Assembly (NCBI GenBank): GCA_017161655.1
Contig: JADFCV010000004.1
Span: 139,378-203,377, forward strand
Length of the DNA stretch: 64,000 nt
Source: Candidatus Sumerlaeota bacterium
GTDB taxonomy: Bacteria > Sumerlaeota > Sumerlaeia > Sumerlaeales > Sumerlaeaceae
Direction: 5' to 3'
The position numbers and the translations under genes were made by a program. Every line of letters begins with the position of its first letter. The first letter of the stretch is position 1. The notes below the pieces were generated by a model. That model was not told the DNA's origin, searched no databases, and was given only the letters and a program-made list of their open reading frames with translations. Below, one piece after another: positions 29,051-34,514 of this stretch.

Positions 29051-30277
29051 CTAATCGGTCTCAACTTGCTCCGCACGTGCCAAGAGCGTGTGCACCATGT
29101 CCTGACGCAGAATGACGTATCCAATCGCCCCGACCACTGAAACAGCGGCAGCCACGTAGCACGCGTAAACGTACGATCCCGAAAGCTCGTAAATCTTCCC
29201 GCCGATGTACGGTCCCGTAAGACCAGCGACTCCATACGCTAAGAACACCCAGGGATAAACGATAGGGAAGGCGCGATTGCCAAACTGCGTGGCCAGGTCT
29301 GCCGCATACAGCACAAAGGCGGCCCCGAAAAGGAAGCCGCACGCAACAGCGATCGGCGTGAATAAAACCGCTTCCTGGGCATGCCCCATGGCCATGAGAA
29401 AAATGCCTTGAATCACCAGAGCAAGCACAAGAGTCCAGCGCCCCCATTTGTCATAAACTCCGCCCCAAAGAAGCCGCCCCGCTGAATTCCCGATCGCAAA
29501 AAAACCAACAGCAGTGGCAGCAATGCCAGCTGGAATTCCATACGAAAGCCCAATGGACTTGAGGTTGCCGATAACAAGCAAACCACCAAAAGTTGCGGAA
29601 AACATCCCGACTACGCTTGCCCAAAACTCGCGTCGCCGGAAGAAGTGTTTTGTGGAAATCCTCTCAGGTCGCATCCCCTCTGCAACTTCATCTTTCGCTT
29701 GCTTCGGCGTCACCAAAAATAGTCCCCCCAGAAGCACACCTGTGCCATTGATTGCAGCGATCATCCGCAGGACGTGGTGAACATCCCAGCCGCGATTCAG
29801 GAGCCACTCAGCCCATTGCGACAAGAGAAGTGCTCCGCCGCCAAAACCAGCGACTGCCAGTCCTGTGATCAACCCCTTACGCTGCGGGAACCACGCCAAG
29901 CACGCTGTGATAGGCGCTGTGTAGCCACAGCCAATGCCTGCTCCCACAAGCACACCTGCACCAAGGAGGAGAACAACATAATGGCCGTTTGCCAGCGAAC
30001 TGAGCAAGTATCCCGACGCAAAAAGTGCTGCGCTGATCACTGTCATCACGCGTGGACCGAAACGTGCGACACCTTGTCCGCCGAATATCATCACGACTGT
30101 GAAAGTGAGAATTGCAACACCAACAACCGAGGAAGCCTTGGAAGGCTCGACATGATATTGCTGCTGTAAAGCAGCGGCCAGCGTACTCCAAGCGTAAAGC
30201 GCTCCGAGCGCAAGCTGAACAACGAGCCCAGCCACAAGTACAACAACACCCCGTCGTAACATTGATCTCGTCACCAT
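29051..30277 (-). CDS. MFS transporter, oxalate/formate antiporter (OFA) type
   Basis: 408 residues with twelve membrane helices. The family-specific start VQLALGALYAWSTLAAAL and the loop ACLAWFPQRKGLITGLAVAGFG after helix four mark the OFA branch of the major facilitators. Members carry small monocarboxylates and dicarboxylates, with oxalate/formate exchange the best known case. GGGGAG precedes the ATG. It lies 59 bases downstream of the bicarbonate-transporter gene on the same strand, so co-transcription is plausible and would tie it to C1 or organic-acid transport. The substrate is not determined by the sequence. Confidence 0.85.
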   Translation of the reverse strand: MVTRSMLRRGVVVLVAGLVVQLALGALYAWSTLAAALQQQYHVEPSKASSVVGVAILTFTVVMIFGGQGVARFGPRVMTVISAALFASGYLLSSLANGHYVVLLLGAGVLVGAGIGCGYTAPITACLAWFPQRKGLITGLAVAGFGGGALLLSQWAEWLLNRGWDVHHVLRMIAAINGTGVLLGGLFLVTPKQAKDEVAEGMRPERISTKHFFRRREFWASVVGMFSATFGGLLVIGNLKSIGLSYGIPAGIAATAVGFFAIGNSAGRLLWGGVYDKWGRWTLVLALVIQGIFLMAMGHAQEAVLFTPIAVACGFLFGAAFVLYAADLATQFGNRAFPIVYPWVFLAYGVAGLTGPYIGGKIYELSGSYVYACYVAAAVSVVGAIGYVILRQDMVHTLLARAEQVETD

Positions 30278-30336: not shown

Positions 30337-31296
30337 CTATGCTAGCATTCGCGAAAAGGTGAAATAAATAGGGATTCCAAGCGTCAGATTGAACGGAAAG
30401 GTTATTCCCAAGGAACAACCCAGATACAGACTAGGATTCGCCTCCGGAAGAGCGATGCGGACAGCAGCAGGAGCGGCAATGTAAGACGCACTTGCCGCCA
30501 TGGCTCCAAGAACTCCACAGCCACCCTCCGAAAGACCGATGATTCTCCCGGCAACAACACCGAGCAGACCGTGCAACAGTGGGACCATAGTCGCAAAGAT
30601 ACCGAGTCTAACTCCTTGGCCGAGAAGCACCGGTAGTTCTTCCGCAGCCACCATTCCTAATTCAAAAAGAAACAACACGAGTGCGCCTGGAAAACCGCTG
30701 ACATAGAAAGGCTCGATTGGCTTAAGCCGCTCCGGTCCAGCCGCAAAGCCTATAACCACGCCGCTGATCATAAGGAGAACACTTGGTCCTGTCACAACCT
30801 CATGCACAACGGTTCTCAGCGAACAGGGGCCGCCAGTTCTCAATCTGACAACAGTCAGTGCAATGATAATTGCTGGAACCTCTAGCAGAGGGATGAGCGA
30901 AGGCATGAAACCTTCGCACGGTACGCTGAGACTTTTACAAAACTGCTGCGCAGCGAGGAACGTGACAGCCGAAACCGATCCATAATGTGCAGCAAGCGCC
31001 GCTGCATTGATCCGATCAAGCTTTGCCAGGCGTCGGGCTATCACGTAAGACGTGAGTGGCGTCACAATGCCCAACAAAAGTGTTGCCAATGAGGGCAGGA
31101 GAATAGCTAGCAGTCCTGCGTGGCGGAGTTCTCCACCGCCTTTGATGCCAATAGCCAAAAGCAAATAAATAGAAATAGCAGTATAAACTGGCTGAGGGAC
31201 ACGGAAATTCGTGCGCAGTAAAGTCGCGATTGCCCCCATCCAGAACGCAAGAACCATCGGCGATAACATGTTGTTCAGCAAAGCTGATGAAATCAC
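30337..31296 (-). CDS. sbtA: SbtA-type sodium-dependent bicarbonate transporter
   Basis: 319 residues from the GTG at 31296, chosen because AAAGGAG lies seven bases before it. An earlier GTG at 31314 would place that ribosome binding site inside the gene. The protein has ten hydrophobic helices in two inverted halves. It carries the SbtA-typical AHYGSVSAVTFLAAQQ and AMAASASYIAAPAAVRIALPEANPSLYL with its conserved serines and prolines. SbtA imports bicarbonate with sodium in cyanobacteria. Homologues are widespread in heterotrophs, where the role is less clear. The usual SbtB (PII-like) partner is not adjacent. Instead a DUF4914 gene lies directly upstream. Confidence 0.85.
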   Translation of the reverse strand: MISSALLNNMLSPMVLAFWMGAIATLLRTNFRVPQPVYTAISIYLLLAIGIKGGGELRHAGLLAILLPSLATLLLGIVTPLTSYVIARRLAKLDRINAAALAAHYGSVSAVTFLAAQQFCKSLSVPCEGFMPSLIPLLEVPAIIIALTVVRLRTGGPCSLRTVVHEVVTGPSVLLMISGVVIGFAAGPERLKPIEPFYVSGFPGALVLFLFELGMVAAEELPVLLGQGVRLGIFATMVPLLHGLLGVVAGRIIGLSEGGCGVLGAMAASASYIAAPAAVRIALPEANPSLYLGCSLGITFPFNLTLGIPIYFTFSRMLA

Positions 31297-31348
31297 ACCT
31301 TGGCTCCTTTGCACTCTAACGTTTCGTACCTAAAAAGAGAAAGGTTCG

Positions 31349-31497
31349 AAAAAAAGGATGCTTTTGCTCCTATGGGAAAAAGGGAACGTTGTCACAGCAA
31401 AGTATGGCTTGAATGCCCGTCGCCCATTAGCTCTTCACAGCAAGTTAGCAGCAAAAGAGCCTTTGGCTCGATTCCCTTTTCCCGTTAGGCATCCTTT
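31349..31497 (-). terminator. long inverted repeat ending in a T run (terminator or attenuator)
   Basis: Two pairs of complementary arms face each other: AAAGGATGC (31353-31361) with GCATCCTTT (31489-31497), and GGGAAAAAGGGAA (31374-31386) with TTCCCTTTTCCC (31472-31483), which differ by one A. On the minus strand the outer arm ends in seven T (31349-31355), like an intrinsic terminator. It sits between the DUF4914 gene and sbtA, 53 bases after the DUF4914 stop. A small inner hairpin (GAGCC TTT GGCTC, 31457-31469) and a 10-base direct repeat CCTTTGGCTC add structure. Confidence 0.45.
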
Positions 31498-31549
31498 GGC
31501 TCATAGCAGCACACGGCGCACAGCAACCAGAGACAATGTCTCATTTCTG

Positions 31550-33472
31550 TTAACTCGAAAACTTTTTATAATCTTCCACACTCCCGCCATCCAGGCAGCA
31601 CTCGATGATTTCGTGGCCTAATTGGTCGAGCTGAGGAACGCGGTACTTGCGCAATTCACGACGGAAAAAGTCCTCGAGAATTTTTGCGCCTTCATCATAG
31701 CCCATCGTGCCAACCTCTGGTTGGGACTCCACACACAGGAACCACGAACTAATTGAGGTTCCCTCGATGTGGATGTTGCGGAGGCTATAGCCGAGCAGTG
31801 AGCACCGAGATGGAACAATTTGGTCGGAGCGGAACGGGGCATAGCCACGACGTGCCAGGTACTCGCGGCAAAGCCATTGCGGCATAAACCCGACCTTCCA
31901 GGCACCGATGTGCTGGTTCGGAATCAGCACGAACAGAGTGTCGGTGGTAGCCATGATTTGCCGCAGCAACAAGTTTGCAAGCTCCACGCGTTGTCCTGGT
32001 GCAAAAGGCCAGAAGCTGCCGACGCCTTCGCTCTCCAGCTGACCGCTTCCGACAATGCTTGGATTATCATGCCCGCGTGGAGAGACGAGCCGCCACAGCC
32101 AGGCCAAAGCCGGCGGAAGAACGTGAAATAATCCAAGAATCCCATACGATGGTTTCTCTGCTGTGCAAGGTGGTGTGCGTACACCAAAGCTGCGAACGTC
32201 CACCGTGACGTTGTCATCTACAATTCCAGGGACGATCGAACGCGGCAAAATGACACGGGGGTTAGGACACGGTTTTCCAGGTGCGTCCTCGATGTGCTCC
32301 CACAGGAGTGCTGTTGCCCCAGGCCTCGCATCAATACTAAGGAAGACAAGTGGCGCCTTGGGATGAATGGTCAGCTCTTCCAGAGTGGGATCAGTTCCAT
32401 ATCGGCGGATGTGGTTGACCCGCACAAACCACGCTTGCTCAGCATCGCGCAAACGTAATTTCTTCGCATGCGGATCGAGCGTGCGGTGGCATAACGCCAT
32501 GTCGTCTGTCACTGGTTGCAAGGCGCAGCCTCGTGGCAAGGTGAGATAGCGCGCCTCGCCTGTCACCAAATTGCGTCCGATGAGCAGCCGACCATCACTT
32601 TCGCGGTGGGGGTACTGCAGCATTTCTGATTTGCCACCACCGCTTGCCCCTTCGTGCATGAAGACGACGTGATTGTCGTAAGGCGTCACGACTCGCACCG
32701 TCGAGCAATGCGCCGTCACCCATCCCTCGCTTTCGCCGCGACTCAGCAGCATGCCGTAAACGCCTTTCTTGGCGCTTGGTCCGGGGTAAAGATTGAAACT
32801 GAACAATTCATGGCGCTGGGGCAACCGGTTGTGTACCACCACCTGTCGGCCGTTGAAATGCGTGTGTCGAAAAGGGGGCGCGACGAGGATGAAAGCCGTT
32901 GGAGAAAAATCCTCTGGCAGGTTGTCCACAGGCAAGATCCCCTGAATCATTGCGAGCGATAGAGCGAAGAACCCCGCGTTCGCTGGACAGATGGCCACGG
33001 CATCGAAACTCTTTGGCTCTTTGCCAGAGCGAAAAACAAAGACCGCAAGATCCTGCTTTGCTAGCCAGGCAAAAGTCTCGTCGCGCACCGGCCCGAATGG
33101 TTTGCCGAAGCGTTCTTCGAATCGCGGTTGGTCCGTTGGCCCCTCATCCCCAACAAACATGCAATCGGGATCTCGACGCCGCATGTACGGCTCTGGGTAA
33201 TTTACAGAAATGCCATTTCGAACTCGACAGACTCTTGCTTCAACGATGCGTCCCTTGCCTTCCACATCATAGGCAACTTCATACCACCCGCTGCATGACG
33301 TCTCCGGCACGGCAAGCTCGAGGAGCTCCTCTATACTACTGGCAAAGCGAACACTCGGGGCAGATTTCAGTAACCCACTGATTTCAACTGGCAAATCTGA
33401 AATGGGAATTCTGCGATCCTCTACAGATAGCGACGAAGTCACGCTCTCATTGTTTTGCTTTTCTTTGTCCAT
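31550..33472 (-). CDS. DUF4914 family protein, PEPCK-like P-loop phosphotransferase candidate
   Basis: 640 residues. The best landmark is HEGASGGGKSEML at about 273-285, the glycine-rich phosphate-binding loop of PEP carboxykinase and HPr kinase. VTDDMAL follows at about 321-327, matching the second metal-binding (DD) motif. PGKPCPNPRVILPRS, near 398-413, resembles the substrate Arg region of PEPCK. The N-terminal 200 residues and the last 130 are peculiar to the family. By fold it should bind ATP or GTP and transfer phosphate, but no reaction is known for DUF4914. It is encoded just upstream of sbtA and divergently from a LysR-type regulator, so bicarbonate or C1 metabolism is a reasonable guess. 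Function is inferred from motif only. Confidence 0.75.
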   Translation of the reverse strand: MDKEKQNNESVTSSLSVEDRRIPISDLPVEISGLLKSAPSVRFASSIEELLELAVPETSCSGWYEVAYDVEGKGRIVEARVCRVRNGISVNYPEPYMRRRDPDCMFVGDEGPTDQPRFEERFGKPFGPVRDETFAWLAKQDLAVFVFRSGKEPKSFDAVAICPANAGFFALSLAMIQGILPVDNLPEDFSPTAFILVAPPFRHTHFNGRQVVVHNRLPQRHELFSFNLYPGPSAKKGVYGMLLSRGESEGWVTAHCSTVRVVTPYDNHVVFMHEGASGGGKSEMLQYPHRESDGRLLIGRNLVTGEARYLTLPRGCALQPVTDDMALCHRTLDPHAKKLRLRDAEQAWFVRVNHIRRYGTDPTLEELTIHPKAPLVFLSIDARPGATALLWEHIEDAPGKPCPNPRVILPRSIVPGIVDDNVTVDVRSFGVRTPPCTAEKPSYGILGLFHVLPPALAWLWRLVSPRGHDNPSIVGSGQLESEGVGSFWPFAPGQRVELANLLLRQIMATTDTLFVLIPNQHIGAWKVGFMPQWLCREYLARRGYAPFRSDQIVPSRCSLLGYSLRNIHIEGTSISSWFLCVESQPEVGTMGYDEGAKILEDFFRRELRKYRVPQLDQLGHEIIECCLDGGSVEDYKKFSS

Positions 33473-33505
33473 TCTCGTTCACCCGTGGAATGTTTTAGAG
33501 AATAT

Positions 33506-33516
33506 GTTCAATGAAC
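33506..33516. promoter_or_regulatory. possible LysR-type operator between divergent genes
   Basis: GTTCA-A-TGAAC is a perfect 11-base inverted repeat in the AT-rich 91-base gap between the DUF4914 and LysR genes. Such dyads in the gap between a LysR gene and its divergent target are typical binding sites. No experimental motif is known for this regulator. Confidence 0.35.
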
Positions 33517-33563
33517 TCATAGAATTTCATAAATAATCTGTATTCTGTCCATTGATAAAATCT

Positions 33564-34514
33564 ATGGACCTACATTCCCTAAACTTTCACCACCTTTTCT
33601 GCTTCTGGATGATTGCCCGAGAGGGCACCGTCGGTGGAGCTGCAAAGCGTCTTCGCCTGAGCCAACCCACCCTATCGGCACATCTACGCGAGTTAGAGGA
33701 ACGTCTCGGAACCCCGCTTTTTGTTCGCTCTGCGCGACGTCTGGTGCTGACCGATGCAGGTCGCCTGGCTTTTGCCTATGCACAGAAGATTTTCTCGGCC
33801 GCTCAGGAATTCATTGACGCGTTAGGCGCTGTATCCACCTTTGCGCCCGTACTCCGCGTTGGTGTTGTCGAGAACTTCCCCCATCTTGTTGCTCTGCGCT
33901 TTTTTGATCGGGTTTTGAAACAGGCTCCCCGGATTCGACTCCTCACCGTCAGCGCTTCAGCGGAGCAGCTCTTTTCTAATCTTCTAGCTGGTGAGCTCGC
34001 ACTTGTGCTTATTGATTCATCCGCCCAGCGCGAGTTTTCTCGTCAGCTCCAGTGGTTGATACTGGAGGACTCCCCTTTGGCCGTCTACGCACCGGCGCCA
34101 CTCGCAGCGAGAATTCCATTCGGGAATCTGGAGGCACTTGCCAATCAGCCGTTTTTACTCCCAGGGCCATCAAGTCCCCTGCGGCCGAAGGTCCAGGAGT
34201 GGCTCAACAGGCTGCCGAGTCCCCCTCAAATCGTTGGCGAGATAGACAATTCTGCTCTTCTTAAGGCTCTTGCTATTTCCAAAGGCGCATTCTTTGTGAT
34301 GCCTTACGTCGAAGCCAATGAGCTGCAAAAACTCTACCACGTTCGATCTGTGTATGTCATTGCGGAGCTTCACCAGCATTACTACGCCGTAGCGCTACGA
34401 AGAGTTTCGCAGCATTCGACGACCGCTGTAATCCTATCGCTGTTACGCAATGAACCTCCTGCGCCCCGTTCCGGAAAACGGATTGCTTCCTCTTCAAAGA
34501 GTGCGAAATCTTAG
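33564..34514 (+). CDS. LysR-family transcriptional regulator (NhaR-like N-terminus)
   Basis: 316 residues from the ATG at 33564; a TTG twelve bases earlier is the alternative. The N-terminal winged helix-turn-helix reads LNFHHLFCFWMIAREGTVGGAAKRLRLSQPTLS, a form close to the NhaR branch. A co-inducer domain with two Rossmann-like lobes follows (VGVVENFPHLVALRFF, then a second lobe near 190-290). It is transcribed divergently from DUF4914 and sbtA, the classic arrangement for a regulator of its neighbours. NhaR-type regulators respond to sodium in E. coli, which would fit a sodium-driven bicarbonate transporter. That is suggestion only. Confidence 0.88.
   Translation: MDLHSLNFHHLFCFWMIAREGTVGGAAKRLRLSQPTLSAHLRELEERLGTPLFVRSARRLVLTDAGRLAFAYAQKIFSAAQEFIDALGAVSTFAPVLRVGVVENFPHLVALRFFDRVLKQAPRIRLLTVSASAEQLFSNLLAGELALVLIDSSAQREFSRQLQWLILEDSPLAVYAPAPLAARIPFGNLEALANQPFLLPGPSSPLRPKVQEWLNRLPSPPQIVGEIDNSALLKALAISKGAFFVMPYVEANELQKLYHVRSVYVIAELHQHYYAVALRRVSQHSTTAVILSLLRNEPPAPRSGKRIASSSKSAKS

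Follow-up and report, generated by a model that had tools for sequence, protein, structure and literature searches.

The DUF4914 protein encoded in the stretch of Candidatus Sumerlaeota DNA considered here (64,000 nucleotides, referred to as the window) belongs to the phosphoenolpyruvate carboxykinase (PEPCK) superfamily, distant from the known members yet complete, and forms a separate family within it. PEPCK interconverts phosphoenolpyruvate (PEP) plus CO2 and oxaloacetate, and I consider it rather probable that DUF4914 catalyzes a reaction of this type at the PEP-oxaloacetate-CO2 node. This view is drawn from homology, from the fold of the whole protein, from residues that do not vary, and from a genomic neighborhood that is not random. 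The unit that DUF4914 forms in the window with an SbtA-type transporter is a local arrangement. What has lasting value is that DUF4914 is a previously unrecognized enzyme of the PEPCK superfamily, whose active site is intact and whose gene is found repeatedly in a context of inorganic carbon.

Genes of the Window

The window comes from a genome of 3.1 Mb in 17 contigs, and the features of interest are given in Table 1. The four genes and their families lie as an earlier note on this DNA had placed them, including an OFA-type carrier 59 bases beyond sbtA on the same strand. Two of its details, a dyad in the divergent gap and the position of sbtA directly downstream of DUF4914, fared less well (see below). 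The DUF4914 protein matches PF16260 with an E-value of about 0 over residues 1-611/612. The best models for the MFS protein are L-lactate MFS (1.3e-72) and oxalate/formate (1.8e-51), both under cut-off. The LysR protein has the helix-turn-helix and substrate domains, and its best NCBIfam match, NhaR (2.6e-42), is also under cut-off, reaching 145 bits as against the 219 of the curated equivalog. Its start is probably the ATG at 33564 rather than the TTG at 33552, since the former aligns with the start in a relative of the same genus.

Table 1. Features around the DUF4914 gene, in coordinates of the window.
Feature	Position	Strand	Evidence or remark
OFA/monocarboxylate-type MFS transporter	29051-30277	-	PF07690, E 5e-31
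Sbt_1 family transporter (SbtA type)	30337-31314	-	PF05982, E 3e-103
DUF4914-sbtA gap, 235 bases	31315-31549	-	long-stem folding, unique in genome
DUF4914, PEPCK-superfamily enzyme, 640 aa	31550-33472	-	PF16260, profile, structure, residues
Divergent promoter gap	33473-33563		conserved block ATAGAATTTCATAAATAAT at 33519-33537, possible LysR site
LysR-type regulator, NhaR-like	33564-34514	+	PF00126, PF03466, NhaR model

Relationship of DUF4914 to PEP Carboxykinases

The homology rests on comparisons of profiles and of structures, since an HMM search of the PDB that used the DUF4914 sequence alone matched no PEPCK; likewise, hmmscan of the protein returns DUF4914 only and not the curated model of ATP-PEPCK. 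When a profile of 33 DUF4914 sequences was aligned by hhalign to one of eight ATP-PEPCKs, the match extended over 401 columns (Prob 93.6, E 2e-7). The same test applied as a control to ATP-PEPCK and GTP-PEPCK gave a weaker match (E 2.1e-5). DUF4914 and GTP-PEPCK profiles matched with an E-value of 0.013, yet the KK, H, P-loop, DD, and NPR elements were paired. The AlphaFold2 model of DUF4914 (pLDDT 88, pTM 0.88) was compared by Foldseek with the PDB, and all 50 matches listed were PEPCKs (E 7e-22 to 7e-19). TM-scores normalized to the query were about 0.62 for the ATP type and 0.70-0.73 for the PPi type, the latter giving the best cover among the matches listed.

The E. coli residues R65, K212, K213, H232, S250, K254, D269, and R333 correspond to R98, K235, K236, H255, S277, K281, D324, and R406 of DUF4914. 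The pairing at D323/D324 was taken from the alignment with GTP-PEPCK and from the motif, the ATP-PEPCK alignment being gapped at that point. None of these catalytic equivalents varies among the 91 DUF4914 sequences compared, an invariance that speaks for constraint within the sampled group only, because the sequences were collected by similarity (at least 58% identity). By eye, the motifs of DUF4914 and E. coli Pck can be set beside each other: PSAKKG and GEMKKG, TAHCST and SMHCSA, GASGGGKS and GLSGTGKT, TDD and GDD, NPRVILPR and NTRVSYPI. What the earlier note had seen as a PEPCK-type P-loop is thus part of a real homology over the whole length, with all catalytic positions present. None of the papers in the collection searched mentions DUF4914 or PF16260.

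Gene Neighborhoods across Phyla

A two-pattern scan for DUF4914 gave at least 586 confirmed loci in many phyla; no plasmid-borne copy was found. The surroundings of 90 loci were screened for 13 enzyme families that act on PEP, oxaloacetate, or bicarbonate. One or more such genes lie near DUF4914 in 14 of these loci, as against none in 40 stretches (784 kb) drawn from the genomes that supplied the loci. This difference (Fisher P 0.004) is indicative only, since the list of enzymes was settled partly once loci had been inspected and the loci are in part related to one another. The remaining 76 loci have none of the PEP or bicarbonate genes tested.

The genes found near DUF4914 above chance are sbtA/sbtB, purE/purK, ppc, PPDK, pckA, carAB, and accC. 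In locus L090, ppc, DUF4914, purK, purE, sbtA, and sbtB follow in order on one strand, and L051 reads DUF4914-PPDK-ppc-purK-purE-sbtA, with, as seen in L124, a beta-carbonic anhydrase beside the sbtA of this cluster. Elsewhere are found accC-purE-carA-carB-DUF4914 with a carbonic-anhydrase-like gene (L097), DUF4914-pckA-phosphofructokinase (L095 and L101), and a malate/lactate dehydrogenase adjoining DUF4914 (L015). HCO3 is a substrate of PurK (PMC10880623) and of PEP carboxylase, and CO2 one of PEPCK (both PMC8100219), so that the common theme of the clusters is the supply of inorganic carbon. A count of PYC/OadA domains in two upstream neighbors was put to no use, as the genes carrying these domains were not found among ten candidates each.

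Two further observations concern the neighborhoods. In verrucomicrobial genomes, at least six of the 30 sbtA loci sampled have purK and/or purE beside sbtA (L117, L112, L134, L124, L126, L115), often together with an SbtB-like gene, an arrangement in which a bicarbonate transporter is coupled to purine synthesis. In L032, L034, L042, and L079, from Chromatiaceae, Akkermansiaceae, and Alphaproteobacteria, DUF4914 is followed at -72 to 15 bases by the gene for an unnamed protein, at least about 290 residues long.

The SbtA-Type Transporter and Its Place beside DUF4914

The sbtA of the window, the only copy in the genome, encodes a protein that matches Slr1512, the cyanobacterial SbtA, with an E-value of 5e-28 and, like most SbtA-type proteins sampled, has the motif ASASYIAxPA. 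Of the four residues of Slr1512 to which bicarbonate was docked, Ser114, Tyr140, Ser324, and Ser327 (PMC8352866), two (Ser114 and Ser324) are kept, whereas Tyr140 is replaced by Ile and Ser327 by Ala. To judge from its family and neighbors, the transporter likely carries bicarbonate.

The earlier note had joined DUF4914 and sbtA as a tight pair, which the relatives do not bear out. Two genomes, the genus relative G029 (locus L018) and the closed G035 (L020), keep LysR divergent from DUF4914-MFS but lack sbtA; they also keep the flanking genes for a glycosyltransferase, a prolyl-tRNA synthetase-like protein, and an aminotransferase. No sbtA was found anywhere in the assemblies G029 (80% complete), G030, G033, and G035. 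In G030 (L016), DUF4914 and the MFS gene are separated by 5 bases according to the ORF call, and the MFS gene, adjoining DUF4914 in all three of these loci, is the conserved downstream partner in Sumerlaeota relatives; related MFS genes also lie near DUF4914 in the Chromatiaceae loci L028 and L042. Within the phylum, sbtA occurs in three of the 12 genomes with DUF4914: the window genome (adjacent), that of L015 (7.4 kb away), and one with the gene on another contig. Since the closest relatives keep LysR-DUF4914-MFS without it, sbtA in the window looks like an insertion or the survivor of a loss, seemingly outside the ancestral unit.

There is close to an even chance, then, that the adjacency has no function at all and that sbtA was merely inserted between DUF4914 and the MFS gene, a possibility compatible with any view of the enzyme. 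The absence of sbtA from G029 and the closed G035 with the other genes in order speaks for this, as does the structured gap of 235 bases. Against it, three of 50 other genomes have sbtA no more than about 10 kb from DUF4914, where 0.12 would be expected (P about 3e-4); to these can be added L015 as well as L098, in which what looks like a remnant of sbtA immediately follows DUF4914. The three genomes are all Verrucomicrobiota, and because the Verrucomicrobia involved are related, the events are not independent. The link does recur elsewhere, though sparsely (L090, L051, L029, L015, L098), so that the finding named in the earlier note as its refutation, no repeated association with sbtA, did not come about. 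The remnant in L098 (2629-2850) is a short ORF in which a purC-like start is joined to an SbtA-like fragment, by its sequence a probable decayed sbtA; 10 kb beyond it lies purK-purE-sbtA.

In L090 the cluster that contains DUF4914 has both sbtA and sbtB, which contradicts the suggestion that DUF4914 takes the place of SbtB. A weak search of the window genome did not find SbtB.

Intergenic Regions and Possible Control

Folding of the 235 bases between DUF4914 and sbtA predicts a long stem (-73 kcal/mol, z -1.9) with a small terminator-like hairpin (GAGCC-AAA-GGCTC-TTTT) in it, features that leave a single transcript for the two genes unsecured. Terminator-like sites in the gap are no more numerous than in shuffled sequences. 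The gene sbtA does follow DUF4914 in order and on the same strand, but not directly as had been claimed, given the foldable gap between them. Nested inverted repeats, with GAGCCAAAGG repeated, occupy 31353-31497. That the gap is a mobile repeat was ruled out by its single occurrence in the genome.

In the divergent gap, the reported 11-base dyad comes down to a weak one, GTCCATTGAT/ATCTATGGAC at 33547-33569, with 10-base arms matching at 90%. It overlaps the LysR start codon, is not kept in the genus relative, and was rejected as a regulator site on grounds of weakness and lack of conservation. The 19-base block listed in Table 1 emerged from an alignment with L018 and L020 and is identical in the window and L018; it is a candidate for the LysR site. 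A divergent LysR gene is found near DUF4914 also in L018, L020, L039, and L078. In L060 (1025-1921) and at least 12 other verrucomicrobial loci, the regulators divergent from DUF4914 or near it are of the PocR-AraC kind, in the position taken by LysR in Sumerlaeota.

Ordinary PEPCK in the Same Genomes

The idea that DUF4914 stands in for a missing PEPCK in the window genome was rejected, a separate PEPCK_ATP gene being present. Of the 12 genomes in the phylum that encode DUF4914, 11 have an ordinary PEPCK as well, so DUF4914 usually fills no gap, which argues for a specialized role (in direction, donor, or condition) and not for that of a substitute. The ordinary enzyme in the phylum is of the ATP type in ten genomes and the GTP type in one when DUF4914 is present, as against 10 and 16 when it is not (P 0.004, kinship ignored). 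Among 50 other DUF4914 genomes, 30 have a GTP-type PEPCK. The genome of Thermotoga maritima, included as a control, encodes DUF4914 but gave no match to either ATP-PEPCK or GTP-PEPCK.

Proposed Function and Alternatives

If DUF4914 is an enzyme of the PEPCK type, it would carry out a reversible phosphoryl transfer coupled to carboxylation or decarboxylation (PEP + CO2 <-> oxaloacetate). The catalytic metal (Mn) would sit at K236, H255, and D324; the phosphoryl donor or product, a nucleotide or pyrophosphate, on the P-loop G275-S282; and the organic acid would be held by R98, S277, and R406. LysR probably controls DUF4914 and the carboxylic-acid transporter of the window, and the intervening SbtA-type transporter could supply bicarbonate and hence CO2. 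In the earlier note's interpretation, it is the CO2-linked phosphotransfer of PEPCK type that is favored, by the homology, the retained catalytic residues, and the bicarbonate and PEP genes nearby, while the tight pairing with sbtA and the replacement of SbtB fall away.

Three classes of PEPCK are recognized according to donor: ATP, GTP, and PPi (PMC8100219). On the reading preferred here, DUF4914 would be a fourth enzyme of PEPCK type beside them. I offer only tentatively, and with more doubt than belief, the more specific proposal that it is a fourth class, possibly pyrophosphate-linked, acting in the carboxylating direction in a response to bicarbonate/CO2 limitation in many phyla, and the only PEPCK-type enzyme in some organisms, such as Thermotoga maritima.

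It strikes me as unlikely that DUF4914 is a kinase or decarboxylase of PEPCK fold that acts on some other acid (e.g., one derived from lactate, malate, or oxalate), with its phosphoryl and metal sites kept, induced through LysR or PocR-AraC and fed by an OFA-type transporter. The conserved partners in the phylum, the OFA-type carrier and LysR, would suit such an enzyme, as would the PocR-AraC genes by DUF4914 in many verrucomicrobial loci, the DASS/citrate-type transporters upstream in L095 and L101, and the usual presence of a canonical PEPCK in the same genome; all the PEPCK residues for PEP/oxaloacetate and CO2 are invariant, however, and pckA, ppc, and PPDK are among the direct neighbors. 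More improbable still is a regulatory protein, either an HPr kinase-like P-loop kinase or a sensor of CO2, bicarbonate, or PEP apart from metabolic flux, as might be imagined from the end of the P-loop GASGGGKSE, which I take to resemble that of HPr kinase, and from the frequency of single DUF4914 genes beside a regulator, for the match to metabolic PEPCKs is full-length, extending beyond the kinase core, and every PEPCK substrate residue is kept.

How carbon flows in any cell is set at the PEP-pyruvate-oxaloacetate node. To find that a widespread unnamed family has the full active site of PEPCK would alter metabolic reconstructions in Planctomycetota, Verrucomicrobiota, Chloroflexota, Sumerlaeota, and Thermotogota, and the ties of DUF4914 to bicarbonate uptake and bicarbonate-consuming biosynthesis suggest a CO2-limitation regulon in heterotrophs.

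Comparison with Known Systems

With the SbtA/SbtB system of cyanobacteria, the window has the Sbt_1 transporter in common, one difference being SbtB, which the weak search did not detect. GTP-PEPCK (EC 4.1.1.32, PF00821) matches only weakly by profile, and DUF4914 has no recognizable guanine pocket, yet the two share a fold and the order of motifs GKK..EGW..EH..P-loop..DD..NPR. The strongest profile match is to ATP-PEPCK (EC 4.1.1.49, PF01293), with which DUF4914 shares the whole fold and the catalytic residues. It differs in having only about 12-16% identity in structural alignments, 100 additional residues, the P-loop GASGGGKSE instead of GLSGTGKTT, and an insertion between the P-loop and the DD motif, and the Pfam model misses it. 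PPi-PEPCK (EC 4.1.1.38; PDB 6k31, 8e1u), compared by structure only, has the highest TM-score over the DUF4914 model, which should be read simply as a lead to the donor, since the higher score may come in part from greater length. DUF4914, at 640 aa, is much shorter than the approximately 1,100 of the PPi class (Foldseek targets 1,108-1,126 aa) and so falls outside that class by length. PPi-PEPCK occurs beside an ordinary PEPCK in most of its hosts (PMC8100219), and DUF4914 does likewise.
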